Source of the DNA: Ideonella aquatica | GTDB lineage: Bacteria; Pseudomonadota; Gammaproteobacteria; Burkholderiales; Burkholderiaceae_C | DNA: 64,000 nucleotides | Direction: 5' to 3' | Assembly (NCBI RefSeq): GCF_018069755.1 | Contig: NZ_JAGQDE010000010.1 | Coordinates: 1 to 64,000 of the forward strand | Shown: positions 7,231-64,000 of the stretch, piece after piece | Layout of the letters: each line of letters opens with the position of its first letter | Position numbering within the stretch: the first letter of the stretch is position 1 | Program-made: the position numbers and the translations under genes | The notes under the pieces: model-generated | The model's database searches: none | What the model saw: only the letters and a program-made list of their open reading frames with translations | Told to the model about the DNA's origin: nothing

Positions 7231-8757
7231 ATGAACGACCTCCAGAACCCCCAGGCGCTGCGAGACATCGTGATCGTCGGCGGCGGCTCGGCCGGCTGGA
7301 TGGCCGCCGCCGCCCTGTCCAAGGCGGTCGACACCCGGCGCTGCCGCATCACGCTGGTCGAGTCCGACGAGATCGGCACGGTCGGCGTGGGCGAGGCCAC
7401 GATCCCGCCGATCCGCACCTTCAATCAGGTGCTGGGCATCGACGAGGCCGAGTTCATGCGGCGCACCCAGGGCAGCTACAAGCTGGGCATCCAGTTTGTC
7501 GACTGGGGGCGCAGCGGACACAGCTACTTCCACCCCTTCGGACCGCACGGCCTGGCGTTTGATCTGGCGCCTCTGCACCAGTACTGGCTGCGCTCGCGCC
7601 AGCGCCTGCAGCTGCCGCCGATCGACGAATACTCGATGGCCTGGGCCATTGCGCGGCGCAACCGCTTCGCCCGCCCGGTGGGCGACCCGCGCTCAGTGAT
7701 GTCGAGCTTCGACTACGCCTACCACTTTGACGCTGGCCTGTATGCGCGCTACCTGCGTGAGCTGTCCGAGGCGCGCGGCGTGCGGCGGGTCGAGGGCAAG
7801 ATCGAGCAGGTCACGCTGCAGCCCGAGAACGGCCATGTGGCCTCGGTGCAGCTGGTCGATGGCCAGGTGCTGGCTGGCGACCTGTTCATCGACTGCTCGG
7901 GCTTCCGCGGACTGCTGATCGAAGAGGCGCTGCACACCGGCTACGAGGACTGGACCCACTGGTTGCCCTGCGACCGCGCGCTGGCCGTGCCCTGCGCCTC
8001 GGTGCCAGGCGGCTTCACGCCCTATACCCGCTCGACTGCCCACGCCGCCGGCTGGCAGTGGCGCATCCCGCTGCAGCACCGCACCGGCAACGGTCATGTC
8101 TACTGCAGCCGGTTCATCTCCGACGACGAGGCTGCCGCCACGCTGATGTCCCGGCTCGACGGCCAGGCGCTGGCGGAGCCGCGCTTGTTGCGCTTCACCA
8201 CCGGTCGGCGGAGCCTGTTCTGGAACCGCAATGTCGTGGCCCTCGGCCTGGCCAGCGGTTTCATGGAGCCGCTCGAGTCGACCAGCCTGCACCTGATCCA
8301 GTCAGGCATCTCGCGCCTGCTGGCGCTGTTCCCCGACCGGCGGATGGACGCCCTCACGCGCGACGAGTTCAACCGCATCGGCATCGAAGAGTTCGAGCGC
8401 ATCCGCGATTTCATCATCCTGCACTACAAGCTCAACGACCGCCCCGAGCCGATGTGGCGTGCCTGCCGCGAGATGGCCGTGCCCGAGTCGCTGCAATGGA
8501 AGATCGATCACTTCCGCCGCAGCGGTCGGCTGGTCAGCCGGGGCAATGACCTGTTCGGCCCGCAGAGCTGGCTGGCCGTACACATGGGCCAGTTCAACGA
8601 ACCCGAGGGCCACGACCCGCTGGTTGATCTGCGCACGGTCGATGCCGACGCCATGCTGGAGCGCCAGCGTCAGGCCATGGCCCAGACCGCCGAGTCCCTG
8701 CCAGGTCACGATCACTTCGTGGCCGAGCACTGCGCTGCGCGGCCCGTCAACGTTTGA
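7231..8757 (+). CDS. Tryptophan-halogenase-family flavoprotein
   Basis: A 508-residue PF04820-type flavin-dependent halogenase homologue. Visible features: N-terminal FAD motif [13 protein letters not shown], the GVGEATIPP segment, Lys84 in GSYKLGIQF at the place of the catalytic lysine of PrnA, and the halogenase motif W275-Q-W-R-I-P280. The ATG at 7231 puts the FAD motif at the usual distance from the start. Family members of this kind often sit next to TonB receptors in carbohydrate loci of Caulobacter- and Xanthomonas-like bacteria, where their substrate is unknown. Here it lies between the receptor and GH32, so a role in indole halogenation is doubtful; reduced flavin would have to come from elsewhere. 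Confidence 0.88.
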
Positions 8758-56283: not shown

Positions 56284-56311
56284 TTTATGAGATGCCTGTG
56301 CGGCAGTGGAC
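56284..56311 (-). repeat. Degenerate trailer-end repeat
   Basis: Differs from consensus at two places (plus strand TTTATGAGATGCC instead of TTTCTGAGCTGCC). One change removes the base pair at the foot of the Cas6f hairpin. Degeneration at the leader-distal end is expected and fixes the array polarity. Confidence 0.95.
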
Positions 56312-56944
56312 GAGCCGAAACCGCCGGGCAGCTACTGGGCGATTTTCTGAGCTGCCTGTGCGGCAGTGGACATGGCGGCTGACGCCATGGGCACCTTCCT
56401 GCATTTCTGAGCTGCCTGTGCGGCAGTGGACGTGATCTCGCGGCCGTTCAGCGTGATGCGGTATTTCTGAGCTGCCTGTGCGGCAGTGGACTATCAGCGC
56501 TGGCGCATGGCGCTGGGCCTGGTTTTCTGAGCTGCCTGTGCGGCAGTGGACAAAAGCGGCGTCCTGCCGCGCGATAAGTTCTATTTCTGAGCTGCCTGTG
56601 CGGCAGTGGACGCGGTCGAGCACACATGCCCAGCGCGGTCGGTTTTCTGAGCTGCCTGTGCGGCAGTGGACCACGCGCATCACGCAGGTGCGCATGGCGT
56701 TCATTTCTGAGCTGCCTGTGCGGCAGTGGACATGGCTGCCGCGCAGTTCCAACTGCTGCAAGATTTCTGAGCTGCCTGTGCGGCAGTGGACGGTGGCGAC
56801 GGATCGCAGTTGGGCGGTGGTCATTTTCTGAGCTGCCTGTGCGGCAGTGGACTAGGTCGTCCCATGATGCCTTCCCCCGGCGACTTTCTGAGCTGCCTGT
56901 GCGGCAGTGGACTTGCGCGCCAGCTTCTCGGGGTCGTCGTCGCC

Positions 56945-56972
56945 TTTCTGGGCTGCCTGTGCGGCAGTGGAC
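56945..56972 (-). repeat. Repeat variant in the 5' handle
   Basis: Plus-strand TTTCTGGGCTG instead of TTTCTGAGCTG; in RNA the handle becomes CCCAGAAA. Stem intact. Confidence 0.95.
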
Positions 56973-57305
56973 TCGGTGGGGCGGCTCATGCTGCGGCCCC
57001 TTGCGTTTCTGAGCTGCCTGTGCGGCAGTGGACCGGGCAACCTGCAGCGCCTGCTGGACGGCGAGTTTCTGAGCTGCCTGTGCGGCAGTGGACGCCGCGT
57101 TGGTCGGCGGTGCGCTGCGCTGCCTTTTCTGAGCTGCCTGTGCGGCAGTGGACAACTTGCGATACAGGAACATCGCGCCCCAGACTTTCTGAGCTGCCTG
57201 TGCGGCAGTGGACGCGATCGATGCCACGATCACCCCGCGCAGCATTTTCTGAGCTGCCTGTGCGGCAGTGGACGGCTCTCTGGCCTCGTTTCGTCGTGTG
57301 CTCAA

Positions 57306-57333
57306 TTTCTGAACTGCCTGTGCGGCAGTGGAC
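57306..57333 (-). repeat. Repeat variant at the cleavage-side base
   Basis: Plus-strand TTTCTGAACTG instead of TTTCTGAGCTG; the first handle base after the stem changes from C to U. Stem intact. Confidence 0.95.
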
Positions 57334-60300
57334 GCGATGCGCGACGTGCCGAGAGGAGGGGAAAATTTCTGAGCTGCCTGTGCGGCAGTGGACGGCTGGA
57401 CCTTGCCCCGCATGTCGGTCGGGATTTTCTGAGCTGCCTGTGCGGCAGTGGACATCGTCGTGCGTGATGCCGTGGTTCGCTTCACTTTCTGAGCTGCCTG
57501 TGCGGCAGTGGACGACACCACCGCCCGCGGCGACAAGCGCGCCGATTTCTGAGCTGCCTGTGCGGCAGTGGACGCGCTACCCGAGCCCGAGCGTGCCGCC
57601 CTGCTTTTCTGAGCTGCCTGTGCGGCAGTGGACGCCGGCGCCCTGCAAGGCTCCATCACCGGCATTTTCTGAGCTGCCTGTGCGGCAGTGGACGGTGTCG
57701 GTGACCCAGCTGTAGGTGGACCACATTTCTGAGCTGCCTGTGCGGCAGTGGACGAGGTTGGATCGGGCGAGCAGATCGCGGAGCTTTTCTGAGCTGCCTG
57801 TGCGGCAGTGGACGCCCAGATCAGCCAGACCAATGCGCAGCTGCTTTTCTGAGCTGCCTGTGCGGCAGTGGACGACAGCGCTTGGCGGTCCGGTGATCTT
57901 CTCTTTTTCTGAGCTGCCTGTGCGGCAGTGGACTTCAGCGCACTGGGTGGGGTGGCAGGCGGCATTTTCTGAGCTGCCTGTGCGGCAGTGGACATGCCGT
58001 TGACCACCGTGGGGCTGGTGTAGATTTTCTGAGCTGCCTGTGCGGCAGTGGACCCCAGGCGGCCCAGCTCGCCCTCCTGGCCCACTTTCTGAGCTGCCTG
58101 TGCGGCAGTGGACGGCCGCACCCCGAACCACCACACAAAGCCGGTTTTCTGAGCTGCCTGTGCGGCAGTGGACGAGGGCTACCACGTCAACCCCGAGACG
58201 GGCGATTTCTGAGCTGCCTGTGCGGCAGTGGACAAGGGCTTCTTCCAGGCCTTCCGAGACACGCTTTTCTGAGCTGCCTGTGCGGCAGTGGACCTGGCCG
58301 ATGAAGATGCGGCCATCGGCCATGTTTTCTGAGCTGCCTGTGCGGCAGTGGACGCGCCAAGATGGCCACCGCGATCATCATGCACTTTCTGAGCTGCCTG
58401 TGCGGCAGTGGACAGCTGGCCATCAAAACCGGCCGCATGCCGCCTTTTCTGAGCTGCCTGTGCGGCAGTGGACGAGAAATCCAAGGCGGGCACTGCGACT
58501 GGGGATTTCTGAGCTGCCTGTGCGGCAGTGGACTGGGCGTGCAGGCGTATCTGAACGGTCGCCACTTTCTGAGCTGCCTGTGCGGCAGTGGACGGCCTGG
58601 CGCACATGGTCAACCTGGACACGCTTTTCTGAGCTGCCTGTGCGGCAGTGGACCCAGCAACGTCAATGGGCTGAGGGCACGCAGCTTTCTGAGCTGCCTG
58701 TGCGGCAGTGGACGTTTGCCGCAGGGTGCGCGCATGTACGGCGTTTTTCTGAGCTGCCTGTGCGGCAGTGGACCCGGGGCTGATCAGGGCGCACTGCTCG
58801 CCCACTTTCTGAGCTGCCTGTGCGGCAGTGGACTTCTGGGCGGGCAGGATGCGGCCGGCCTTCACTTTCTGAGCTGCCTGTGCGGCAGTGGACGACCCTG
58901 CCGGCGCCGGCCGGCGCGCGCCGATTTTCTGAGCTGCCTGTGCGGCAGTGGACCGCTCGAAGCGCCGTACTGCCAGATCGTCCTCTTTCTGAGCTGCCTG
59001 TGCGGCAGTGGACTGCTTTCCTTTGCTCGTGAGAGCGTTTCGCTATTTCTGAGCTGCCTGTGCGGCAGTGGACATCACCAGACAGACCTCCCCCTACCCC
59101 ATGTATTTCTGAGCTGCCTGTGCGGCAGTGGACTCGACCGTTGCCCACACGATCAGCACCGCGGCTTTCTGAGCTGCCTGTGCGGCAGTGGACTGACATT
59201 GGGGGCGACCACCTGCCAGGGATTTTTTCTGAGCTGCCTGTGCGGCAGTGGACGTGGTCACGCAGACTGCCACGGTTTCGGGCGATTTCTGAGCTGCCTG
59301 TGCGGCAGTGGACGGGCCGCCTTACCTCGGGCGCGCCATTGCTTTTTTCTGAGCTGCCTGTGCGGCAGTGGACACCGACTACGTGGGCGTGCGCGACCTG
59401 GTGCATTTCTGAGCTGCCTGTGCGGCAGTGGACGAGGTGAACCAAAAGTTTGCCGACACCGGCGATTTCTGAGCTGCCTGTGCGGCAGTGGACGCCGCGT
59501 TGACGGCGCGGTAGGCGTCCCAGTATTTCTGAGCTGCCTGTGCGGCAGTGGACGACCCCAGGCGCTTGCCGGCCCTGCGTTGATCTTTCTGAGCTGCCTG
59601 TGCGGCAGTGGACACACCAAGCGTCTGACCGAAGCACCCCACAGATTTCTGAGCTGCCTGTGCGGCAGTGGACCAGGTAGCGCGGGGGCAGCTCGGTGCT
59701 GATGTTTTCTGAGCTGCCTGTGCGGCAGTGGACGTGATTTACCGGACGCTTTGCGCAGTTCATCTTTTCTGAGCTGCCTGTGCGGCAGTGGACGCGGGAT
59801 TGGGGCCCATGGGGCGGCCTCCAGATTTCTGAGCTGCCTGTGCGGCAGTGGACATCCATCGGAAGGGCATCGACGGTTTCTCGCTTTTCTGAGCTGCCTG
59901 TGCGGCAGTGGACTTCCGTGTGCAGGCCTTCCTGGCCGCGGGCCATTTCTGAGCTGCCTGTGCGGCAGTGGACGGCACACCGGCGTAGCCGACTTCCATG
60001 CGCTTTTTCTGAGCTGCCTGTGCGGCAGTGGACGTGGTCGTCGTGGCCGTTTCAACGCGGGTGGATTTTCTGAGCTGCCTGTGCGGCAGTGGACGACGTG
60101 CTGCGGATGTGGCAGGGCCGGAAGATTTTCTGAGCTGCCTGTGCGGCAGTGGACGGCACGATCGAACAAGGTCTTCTGCTGCCCAATTTCTGAGCTGCCT
60201 GTGCGGCAGTGGACGTGCCGTTGTTGCTCGTGTGCTGGTCGCGCTCTTTCTGAGCTGCCTGTGCGGCAGTGGACGCGTATGGCCTCCAGCGCCACCACAA

Positions 60301-60366
60301 AGGTGTTTTCTGAGCTGCCTGTGCGGCAGTGGACTGAGCGAGCAAAACCTACAAGGCGTCTACCGA

Positions 60367-60394
60367 TTTCTGAGCTGCCTGTGCGGTAGTGGAC
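60367..60394 (-). repeat. Repeat variant with a hairpin mismatch
   Basis: Plus-strand GCGGTAGTGG instead of GCGGCAGTGG. In crRNA sense the stem becomes CTACC/GGCAG, putting an A-C mismatch in the centre of the 5-bp stem that Cas6f recognises. Confidence 0.95.
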
Positions 60395-62734
60395 ATTTTC
60401 AGTTGGCAGAAACGCGCGCTTGACCTTTTCTGAGCTGCCTGTGCGGCAGTGGACCTCAACCGCCTTGTTGTCGCGCCACTCTTCAGTTTCTGAGCTGCCT
60501 GTGCGGCAGTGGACACGGACCATTCGGGAAACGCCGCGGCCCGGTATTTCTGAGCTGCCTGTGCGGCAGTGGACAGCGTGTCAGCCTGGGCCTTCTCCCC
60601 TCGGGCTTTCTGAGCTGCCTGTGCGGCAGTGGACGGAGCGCGATGATAGGCGTTATTGCGTCATATTTTCTGAGCTGCCTGTGCGGCAGTGGACTTGACC
60701 GGTGACCTGCTCAGCCGCATCCTGCATTTCTGAGCTGCCTGTGCGGCAGTGGACATCTGCTGGGCAGTGGGGCCCCACAGCTCGCTTTTCTGAGCTGCCT
60801 GTGCGGCAGTGGACGGGCTGGCGTTCTATGTGCTGCGCGCCGCGTTTTTCTGAGCTGCCTGTGCGGCAGTGGACCTGCTGGCGCAGCGGCTCCGCTGGCA
60901 CCATGTTTTCTGAGCTGCCTGTGCGGCAGTGGACTTCGTAGATGCGACATCGAATCCCCTAGTGCTTTTCTGAGCTGCCTGTGCGGCAGTGGACTGGCAG
61001 GCCCTTCTTCAGCCAGTACGAGACGTTTTCTGAGCTGCCTGTGCGGCAGTGGACCGTGAGGCCACCAACCGCGAGCGTCCCAGTGATTTCTGAGCTGCCT
61101 GTGCGGCAGTGGACGCCAGGGTGAACGACAGGCCACCGGCCGAGAATTTCTGAGCTGCCTGTGCGGCAGTGGACTACGACACGGATGAGAAGGAAGCGCT
61201 GGACAATTTCTGAGCTGCCTGTGCGGCAGTGGACGCTGAAGGAGGCCCAGGCCACCGCGGCCGAGTTTTCTGAGCTGCCTGTGCGGCAGTGGACTTTTCA
61301 AGGCCGCCCTACAGGCCAAGCAGCACTTTCTGAGCTGCCTGTGCGGCAGTGGACGCTGCGTGGCTCCTATGCGCCAGCACTGAGCATTTCTGAGCTGCCT
61401 GTGCGGCAGTGGACACTCGATCCCGGAAGCTGATTGGACTTACACCTTTCTGAGCTGCCTGTGCGGCAGTGGACTTCGTCCTCTTCAACGACGGCAACGC
61501 CTACCTTTTCTGAGCTGCCTGTGCGGCAGTGGACGTTCTTGACGATCAGGTAGCCGCCGTCGGTCATTTCTGAGCTGCCTGTGCGGCAGTGGACCGTGTT
61601 CTACCTGGCCACCACCGGCTTTGTGTTTTCTGAGCTGCCTGTGCGGCAGTGGACGAGGTGGTCGCCGGCGTCGGCGTAGGCGTTGATTTCTGAGCTGCCT
61701 GTGCGGCAGTGGACTTGGTCGCCGGTCGCGCTGGCCGCGCCTTGGTTTTCTGAGCTGCCTGTGCGGCAGTGGACTCGGCCGGGGTGGCTGGCGCGCTGGG
61801 CACGGTTTTCTGAGCTGCCTGTGCGGCAGTGGACTTGATGTATCGCGAGGGGTGCAGGCCGTCACTTTTCTGAGCTGCCTGTGCGGCAGTGGACGAGAAC
61901 ATCGAGCGCCGCGACGCGGCTTGATATTTCTGAGCTGCCTGTGCGGCAGTGGACGCGCGGTCGGCGTTGGCCGTGTTGGTGCGGCTTTTCTGAGCTGCCT
62001 GTGCGGCAGTGGACGCTGCACGTTGTCCCGTCTCGGGATCGCATGTTTTCTGAGCTGCCTGTGCGGCAGTGGACCCGGAACAGGCCCGCCAGCATGTTGC
62101 GCTTGATTTCTGAGCTGCCTGTGCGGCAGTGGACACGGTGAGCGCGTCACGCACGCCAGCCCCGCTTTTCTGAGCTGCCTGTGCGGCAGTGGACATGGCT
62201 AGCCGGGTGATGGCTAGCCGGGTGATTTTCTGAGCTGCCTGTGCGGCAGTGGACGGGAAAAAGAATCCACTCCGACTAGTCCAGGTTTTCTGAGCTGCCT
62301 GTGCGGCAGTGGACGTCACGCTCATCATCCACCCGGATGACAGCAATTTCTGAGCTGCCTGTGCGGCAGTGGACAGCACCGTGCGCTACTCCGTGGGCCC
62401 CGACCTTTTCTGAGCTGCCTGTGCGGCAGTGGACTTCTCGGCCTGCTGGGTGTGGTGCTCCCGGCTTTTCTGAGCTGCCTGTGCGGCAGTGGACGGTTGC
62501 GTTGATTTTCTCGGCCTGCTGGGTGTTTTCTGAGCTGCCTGTGCGGCAGTGGACTCCTGGCAGGGCTTGGGGGCAGCGTTGGGCATTTTCTGAGCTGCCT
62601 GTGCGGCAGTGGACACGAACTGTTCGGCGACTTTCGGAGCCTCAACTTTCTGAGCTGCCTGTGCGGCAGTGGACTTACCCGCGTACCAACCAGTAACCAC
62701 GCCGTTTTTCTGAGCTGCCTGTGCGGCAGTGGAC

Positions 62735-62863
62735 TAGGCGTCTGAGGCGCCAAGCACCTGTCAGTGCTCACGTTTCCTGGCGGACAGGCTCGCACACCAA
62801 AGACTGGGATCCTTGCGCAAGTGCTTGTTTCCCAAGCACTTGCCAGGCAACGCGTAAAAAGGG
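62735..62863 (-). promoter_or_regulatory. CRISPR leader between cas6f and the first repeat
   Basis: About 129 bp from the cas6f stop to the newest repeat, less GC-rich than the chromosome part of the window. This is where the array promoter and the adaptation-guiding sites should lie. It contains a perfect inverted repeat at 62818-62842. No clear IHF consensus was found by eye. Confidence 0.75.
62818..62842. repeat. Perfect inverted repeat in the leader
   Basis: CAAGTGCTT - 7 nt - AAGCACTTG. It lies 21 bp from the cas6f stop and 83 bp from the first repeat. No T-run follows on either strand, so it is more likely an operator or RNA hairpin than a terminator. Confidence 0.7.
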
Positions 62864-63424
62864 TCAAAACCAAGGGACGGTCGCAGTGGTGCTCAACCCG
62901 TAGGCATTGAACTCGCCGCTAGCCTGCGGGCAAGGCGCACCCAGCCGAAGGAAGAACTTGAACCGTTGTCCTGTACTGGCACTGGACAAGCGCAAGTAGG
63001 GGAGTTTCAAGGTCTCAGCACAGCTGTCGGGCACCCGCTGCAGTGCCTCTTCATGGCTCAGGTTGTGTCGTCGCATTTGACGTCGCCGAAGCCGCTCAGC
63101 ACTGCTTTTGGCCTGGACTCGGCGCAGTGTGCGTTGAACAGCTTCCGCGGGCACCGGGGCCATGCCTCGCACGTCGGCATGGTCACGCATGCCTTTGAGC
63201 CAATCGTGCTCCATGAGCCGCGTCAATTCGACGGCAGGCCCCAGAAGCCGCAGGGTTGGTCCCAGGGTGACAGGGGACTCCGAGTAGCCGGGGAAGCTCA
63301 CGGCAATCTGCCGGCTCTGCACCAGTGCCAGCCAGCGGTGCAGCTTGGTAAAGAGAGCGGCCATCAACTGATGCTCTGCGAATTCTGGGTCCGGCCGCAG
63401 ATGTATGTCGATGTAGTGATGCAT
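62864..63424 (-). CDS. cas6f: Cas6f (Csy4) crRNA-processing endoribonuclease
   Basis: A 186-residue protein nearly the same length as Pseudomonas Csy4 (187) and alignable throughout: MHHYIDIHLRPDPEF, VQAKSSAERLRRRQMRRHNLS, ASTGQRFKFF, ending VPWF. Catalytic residues are in place: His29, Ser150 (in SASTG) and Tyr175 (in NAYGLS). The Arg-rich helix (about residues 111-119) grips the repeat hairpin. The enzyme cuts each repeat at the 3' foot of the stem and stays bound to the crRNA. AAGGAG at the end of csy3 serves as its ribosome-binding site; 7 bp separate the genes. The array lies directly downstream. Confidence 0.97.
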   Translation of the reverse strand: MHHYIDIHLRPDPEFAEHQLMAALFTKLHRWLALVQSRQIAVSFPGYSESPVTLGPTLRLLGPAVELTRLMEHDWLKGMRDHADVRGMAPVPAEAVQRTLRRVQAKSSAERLRRRQMRRHNLSHEEALQRVPDSCAETLKLPYLRLSSASTGQRFKFFLRLGAPCPQASGEFNAYGLSTTATVPWF

Positions 63425-63431
63425 TGTCGAC

Positions 63432-64000
63432 TCACTCCTTGCTTGCGTCGCCGAATACGCCGCCGCGAATCAGCGTGGCCATGACGAAATGCTGCTGTTC
63501 CACTGATGGCACTTTGTCCTTGAGAAGCCAGCTGTCCAACAGGTTGTAGAAGTCCAGCTTGTCGGTCGGCTTTCGACAGGCCTTGCCTAGCGTGGTCACC
63601 GAGCCGTAGGGCTCTACGGCAATGGGTCCCAACTCGGCCACATCGGGGTGCCAGGTGTCGATGGTGCGCAGGGCGTTGCCGAGCTTTTGAGAGTGGATGC
63701 CTGCCACGCCCTGGACGTGGTAAAGCGTCTTGCTCTTCTTGCTGTTGCCCTTGTCCAGAATGAGTTCCTGCGAGGGATAGACTTCCTGCGCAGCACCAAC
63801 TCGGGCATAGGCCGTGATTTGCAGCAGCACGTGGCTGCTGCCGGCCAGGCCTTGAGCGATCAGCGCAGCCAAGGCGCCCAGTTCCGATTCTGTGGTTGCC
63901 GGCGCCGAGAAATCGCGCAGTGGCAGGCTCAGAGCGTCGAACACCCAGGTTCGGGCCGCTTGGCCTTGCGCCAGGTGAACAACGTGAACCTCTACCTGCT
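63432..64000 (-). CDS. cas7f: Cas7f (Csy3) backbone subunit (5' part beyond window)
   Basis: The C-terminal 189 residues of Csy3, the protein that polymerises along the spacer part of the crRNA in the type I-F Cascade. The frame is open to the window edge (VEVHVVHLAQGQAARTWVFDAL...), so an internal GTG at 63944 is not the start; the whole protein would be about 335-340 residues. Recognisable family parts are ITAYARVGAAQEVYPSQEL, VAGIHSQKLGNALRTIDTWH and the end HFVMATLIRGGVFGDASKE. csy1, csy2, cas2-3 and cas1 should lie beyond 64 kb. Confidence 0.95.
   Translation of the reverse strand, partial: QVEVHVVHLAQGQAARTWVFDALSLPLRDFSAPATTESELGALAALIAQGLAGSSHVLLQITAYARVGAAQEVYPSQELILDKGNSKKSKTLYHVQGVAGIHSQKLGNALRTIDTWHPDVAELGPIAVEPYGSVTTLGKACRKPTDKLDFYNLLDSWLLKDKVPSVEQQHFVMATLIRGGVFGDASKE

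Follow-up and report, generated by a model that had tools for sequence, protein, structure and literature searches.

Neighbouring spacers of a type I-F1 CRISPR array in Ideonella aquatica overlap by 19 nt and expose a CC PAM

Two overlapping spacers at the leader end

Two neighbouring spacers in the CRISPR array of Ideonella aquatica most probably record two captures by a type I-F1 system from overlapping sites in one invader, or in nearly identical invaders. We put the probability of this reading at about 0.88, a figure that excludes any linkage between the two captures. The array lies on the minus strand of the window, the 64,000-nt stretch of contig NZ_JAGQDE010000010.1 analysed here, to which the coordinates below refer. 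Counted from the leader, the older member of the pair is spacer #5 (62435..62466, minus strand) and the newer is spacer #4 (62495..62526, minus strand). The original prediction described an exact overlap of 19 nt on the same strand with an offset of 13 nt, and this is what the array contains: the shared bases form the 3' part of spacer #5 (62435..62453) and the 5' part of spacer #4 (62508..62526), both on the minus strand, and the overlap extends to both spacer ends. The dinucleotide CC, predicted immediately before the second protospacer, is present within spacer #5 (62454..62455, minus strand) directly 5' of the start of protospacer #4, and is the visible PAM of that spacer. The PAM position of #5 itself falls outside both spacers and is hence out of view.

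The overlap is not due to chance. When all pairs of the 107 spacers were compared on both strands, the longest string shared by any other pair was 13 nt. Simulated arrays of 107 spacers each, drawn from a second-order Markov model with the composition of the real array, reached an end overlap of at least 13 nt in 2 cases out of 2000, and mononucleotide shuffles (n = 100) yielded 0.02 overlaps of 11 nt per array, with nothing above that length. Coincidental similarity, or an artefact of copying within the array, is an extremely improbable source of the pair, since 0 of the 2000 simulated arrays attained 19 nt. Repeat slippage was rejected because whole repeat-spacer units would not yield a 13-nt offset. 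Five of the 31 dinucleotides in spacer #5 are CC, and about one in six random offsets would accordingly show it. Taken alone, the CC before #4 is thus weak evidence; it is strong once joined with the other exact overlap pairs described below.

The 45-nt merge of the two spacers and its frame-0 translation are as predicted. The named frame is open and is favoured by its third positions, 13 of 15 being G or C, but one reverse frame has 12 of 14. Five of the six frames of the 45-mer are open, which makes openness weak evidence, and it was rejected as proof of coding.

The array and its cas genes

The locus is a complete, ordinary type I-F1 CRISPR-Cas system. In the array (56284..62734, minus strand), 108 repeats, each 28 nt long, alternate with 107 spacers; of the spacers, 104 are 32 nt long and three 33 nt. 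The repeat consensus in the crRNA sense is GTCCACTGCCGCACAGGCAGCTCAGAAA, to which 104/108 repeats are identical. The model RF01317 scored above its cut-off at 106/108 repeats; the remaining two (56284 and 60367) are variants and were recovered by pattern. The repeat folds into a hairpin with a 5-bp stem (-8.6 kcal/mol), and 17/200 shuffles fold equally well (z -1.39). Searched at up to three mismatches across the 5.17-Mb, 58-contig assembly, the repeat occurs at 108 places, the number in the array.

The leader end was taken as the high-coordinate end. The repeat direction and the location of the cas operon point to this, as does the final repeat, which is degenerate and forms the leader-distal terminus (56284..56311, minus strand). 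By its position and the direction of the repeats, the interval between cas6f and the first repeat (62735..62863, minus strand) is the probable leader region. The cas6f (csy4) gene follows at 62864..63424 on the minus strand (TIGR02563, 175.4 bits against a cut-off of 36.25), and the 3' part of cas7f (csy3) occupies 63432..64000 on the same strand, the gene continuing beyond the window. On the same contig beyond the window lie the rest of csy3 and then csy2, csy1, cas2-3 and cas1. Type I-F1 systems are marked by cas1, a cas2-3 fusion, csy1, csy2, csy3 and cas6f in one operon. All six genes are present here in order on the minus strand, each above its NCBIfam cut-off, together with a 28-nt hairpin repeat, spacers of 32 or 33 nt and a 5' CC PAM (crRNA sense, read from arrays alone).

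The first base of the spacers is strongly skewed. In this array (n = 107) spacers begin with A in 53 cases, T in 33, G in 18 and C in 3, C making up 33% of bases overall. Across the 20 array stretches introduced below (n = 1156) the counts are A 472, T 401, G 174 and C 109, with C at 31% overall, so that A or T comes first in 873/1156 spacers, this array included. Spacers #4, #5, #19 and #77 each begin with A. In this preference for A or T over C the array thus conforms to typical I-F behaviour. A first-base preference for A or T in type I-F is already described in PMC5059440, and we rejected the bias as a new finding.

CC at visible PAM places in this and related arrays

Overlaps were compared over 20 array stretches, this one and 19 from genomes of the genus or family, with 1156 spacers in all; some of these derive from the same locus or are truncated by contig ends. 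Of 120 family genomes, 13 are listed with a match; three of these, G043, G075 and G093, contributed no array to the comparison. With a floor of 10 nt, the exact offset end overlaps within arrays measured 23, 19, 19, 18, 13 and 11 nt and were confined to 2/20 stretches, this array and a long array of a congener (L056). The 18-nt overlap is tail-to-tail and so exposes no PAM. The four exact offset overlaps of at least 13 nt that expose PAM places show CC at 6/6 of them, including 3/3 within this array. The background frequency of CC is 8.0% over all spacers of the 20 stretches and 9.7% in this array. In a score-cut analysis, which excludes #19/#77, exact overlaps showed CC at 4/4 places (binomial p 4e-5). 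The claim that the array supplies its PAM without outside data is borne out by the three places here and, with the relatives, by all six; those six places and the complete type I-F cas set likewise back the identification of CC as the type I-F PAM.

Adding imperfect overlaps (z at least 5.9, a cut-off that excludes #19/#77) gave CC at 9/11 within-array places. One of the two others is CG; here CC stands one position farther from the protospacer, a pattern resembling published slipping. The other is CA in a tandem-repeat pair that also supplies one of the nine CC; without this pair the count is 8/9. The sole imperfect cross-array pair that exposes PAM places has CG and GA (0/2 CC). A within-array overlap of 11 nt shows TC, and a looser list (10 stretches, 721 spacers) holds a cross-array overlap matching at 15/17 bases with AT and two cross-array 11-nt pairs with GC. 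These TC, GC, GC and AT overlaps were counted as chance. Within the present array, the overlaps shorter than 13 nt comprise a single 9-nt case (GC, GC), two 8-nt cases (CC, TC) and a 7-nt case (CT); they occur near shuffle rates and look like chance.

A second pair, spacers #19 and #77

A further overlapping pair, absent from the original prediction, joins spacers #19 (61595..61626, minus strand) and #77 (58114..58145, minus strand). Lying on opposite strands, they meet head-to-head with their 5' ends in an overlap of 13 nt, and CC precedes each spacer inside the other: the plus-strand CC at 61612-61613 in #19 is the visible PAM of #77, and the plus-strand CC at 58131-58132 in #77 is that of #19. 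In a frame with G or C at 15/16 third positions, the 51-mer merged from the pair reads VFYLATTGFVWWFGVR; a stop-bearing reverse frame has G or C at 16/17. The two spacers stand 58 positions apart in the array, with 57 spacers between them. A target was sought in the I. aquatica genome (with a 40-nt part), in viral contigs (three degenerate patterns) and in genome contigs (one pattern), and none was found in these searches.

The strand and side of #19 relative to #77 (displaced strand, 5') are those expected from priming by #77, but the two are far apart in the array. Some overlap pairs in long I-F arrays could be recall events. In this case old #77 would have met a related invader much later and directed uptake of #19 from a site on the displaced strand, directly 5' of the #77 target. 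We consider this unlikely; if true, it would make priming history readable from an array without any invader genome.

Spacers #3 and #63 of a related array (L092) and spacer #19 of the window have a common start, ACACAAAGCC. Compared by eye, the reverse frames (VFGVMRTGFV and VFYLATTGFV) resemble one protein family, and it looks as though one such family was targeted at the same place in two genera.

Searches for the invader

The merged 45-nt sequence had been proposed as a query, and it found no target in the phage, plasmid, IMG/VR and genome collections searched. With blastn against phages, none of the best 20 of 25 records covered 80% of the query, and the best E was 3. Against plasmids (best 20 of 54 records), two records covered at least 80% at 78% identity (E 8), and the best E among the matches listed was 0.7. 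The phage and plasmid matches were rejected as being at chance level. IMG/VR held no match for an exact 18-mer or for three degenerate back-translations of the peptide; 17-mer matches in five contigs were rejected, the best agreeing with the 45-mer at 27/45 bases. One degenerate pattern for this target had no match in genome contigs.

The shared 19-mer occurs at 21 places in the I. aquatica genome at up to three mismatches, and the only two exact ones are the spacers themselves. At the same tolerance, spacer #5 was found only in this array among 200 family genomes, and spacer #4 only in this array among 399. Compared as a whole with 16 genus genomes (18 candidates scored per genome), the array gave no match confined to #4 or #5; the array-to-array alignments run across both.

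The whole array matched 50 phage records, 48 of them Mycobacterium phages with a lysin A or endolysin gene resembling spacer #18 (window 61655-61686) at 94% or 88% over 34 nt. The two bases before the match are GA, not CC, in Mycobacterium phage Hanako, the one record opened, and the match was set aside as a target in favour of gene homology or chance. The whole array also matched 31 plasmid records, several of which, from the spread of the matching pieces, look like other arrays.

How the two spacers may have been captured

Cas1:Cas2-3 would have taken two spacers from sites that overlap in one invader sequence, or in two that are nearly identical. Spacer #5 would have been stored first, and #4 would be the next surviving spacer. 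Protospacer #4 would start 13 nt further 3' on the strand of protospacer #5, and #4 would have been cut directly behind a CC PAM, both spacers beginning with A. New spacers insert at the leader end of an array; #4 is therefore the newer, as originally proposed. We infer from this insertion the order of capture, and we likewise take CC to precede protospacer #5 and the invader to be the same.

A single locus was also part of the original prediction. The exact join and the CC support a common target locus, and an origin of #4 and #5 in one invader locus is likely; because the collections searched held no target, the case for a single invader is drawn from the exact join. Two related invaders with the same 19 nt would give the same picture. 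Whether the captures were linked by a continuing attack at the locus stands at about even odds.

The captures may have been independent, perhaps made in different infections by the same or related invaders that carried a conserved stretch with good sites, CC followed by A; we would give this slightly less than an even chance. In its favour, distant pairs also overlap or repeat, such as #19/#77 here and #57/#120 in L056, and exact duplicates lie far apart in other arrays (#80/#120 in L048 and #3/#63 in L092). Against this, none of the other exact offset pairs consists of adjacent spacers, as #4 and #5 do.

Primed adaptation requires a pre-existing matching spacer plus interference proteins, and it yields new spacers near the primed protospacer with a bias to the displaced strand. 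A Csy complex guided by #5 might thus have recruited Cas1:Cas2-3, so that a neighbouring protospacer was taken as #4 (primed or targeted acquisition), a possibility that we hold tentatively. Spacers #4 and #5 are neighbours, as expected for 1.9% of random pairs, and their protospacers lie 13 nt apart; in published I-F priming, new spacers gather close to the primed protospacer (PMC4117759, PMC7056967). Spacer #4 shares the strand of #5 and lies PAM-distal to it, whereas new I-F spacers favour the other strand. In Legionella about 75% of the new spacers lie there (PMC7056967). In one Pectobacterium set the division is 58% on the other strand against 42% on the priming strand, in a report whose title calls it strand-independent (PMC4117759). 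In the deep Pectobacterium data of PMC5059440, new spacers on the displaced strand initially favour the 5' side of the target and those on the primed strand are spread more uniformly, with strand totals about equal. The original prediction had found the pair consistent with repeated or primed sampling; as to priming, the strand lends this no support, as the I-F priming data place most new spacers on the other strand. The shared strand argues mildly against priming, and adjacency in the array favours linked uptake.

Relation to known systems

Two captures from overlapping sites are normal type I-F behaviour and ordinary biology, and the view of type I-F biology is unchanged. Overlapping spacers in Sulfolobus are the subject of a study reportedly by Erdmann and Garrett in 2012. 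In the Sulfolobus work (PMC3468723), overlapping new spacers were likewise assembled into contigs with a CCN PAM beside them; it differs in the archaeal array types and in the many spacers newly gained in culture. Overlapping spacers, and PAM reading from them, are thus already in print for archaea. Assembly of viral contigs by spacer tiling (PMC6858448) also merges overlapping spacers into target sequence, from spacer sequencing at community scale.

The closest parallel is I-F adaptation in Pectobacterium atrosepticum (Staals 2016, PMC5059440; Richter 2014, PMC4117759). It shares with our array 32/33-nt spacers, an A or T first base and a PAM that is CC in the crRNA sense and GG on the complementary strand; within G-stretches the PAM base is avoided at the end of the spacer, and new spacers are clustered. 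There the invader was known and acquisition was watched, whereas here the array is the sole record of either. Among the literature matches listed, none of the I-F papers reads its PAM off a single natural array, and a search for literature on overlapping protospacers in type I-F returned none. The present pairs mean that some long natural I-F arrays contain overlap pairs with readable PAMs, and, for a lineage with no invader found in the collections searched, they confirm the PAM from the array alone.

Repeated and tandem spacers

Other forms of repetition were seen in the arrays. Spacer #9 (window 62195-62226) consists, by eye, of the 15-nt unit ATCACCCGGCTAGCC in tandem, twice plus AT, and the sequence it targets is probably a tandem repeat too. 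Tandem-repeat spacers also occur in L056 (#22, #42 and #54). Nine pairs of exact duplicate spacers within one array were found in the 20 stretches (L048, L050, L090, L092 and L094). Besides the two far-apart pairs named above, they include adjacent duplicates at L048 #140/#141, L050 #67/#68 and L090 #88/#89. L092 (array at 7903, minus strand) also carries near-copies in the same register, #21/#37 agreeing at 30/32 bases, #40/#51 at 28/32 and #37/#40 at 24/32, as though related invader loci of one family had been sampled repeatedly at the same site. The 129-repeat array L056 lies in a congener on a contig of 282640 bases (G181 contig C2) that agrees in length and match coordinates with Vitreoscilla filiformis plasmid NZ_CP022424.1; there, this very long I-F array is apparently carried on a plasmid.
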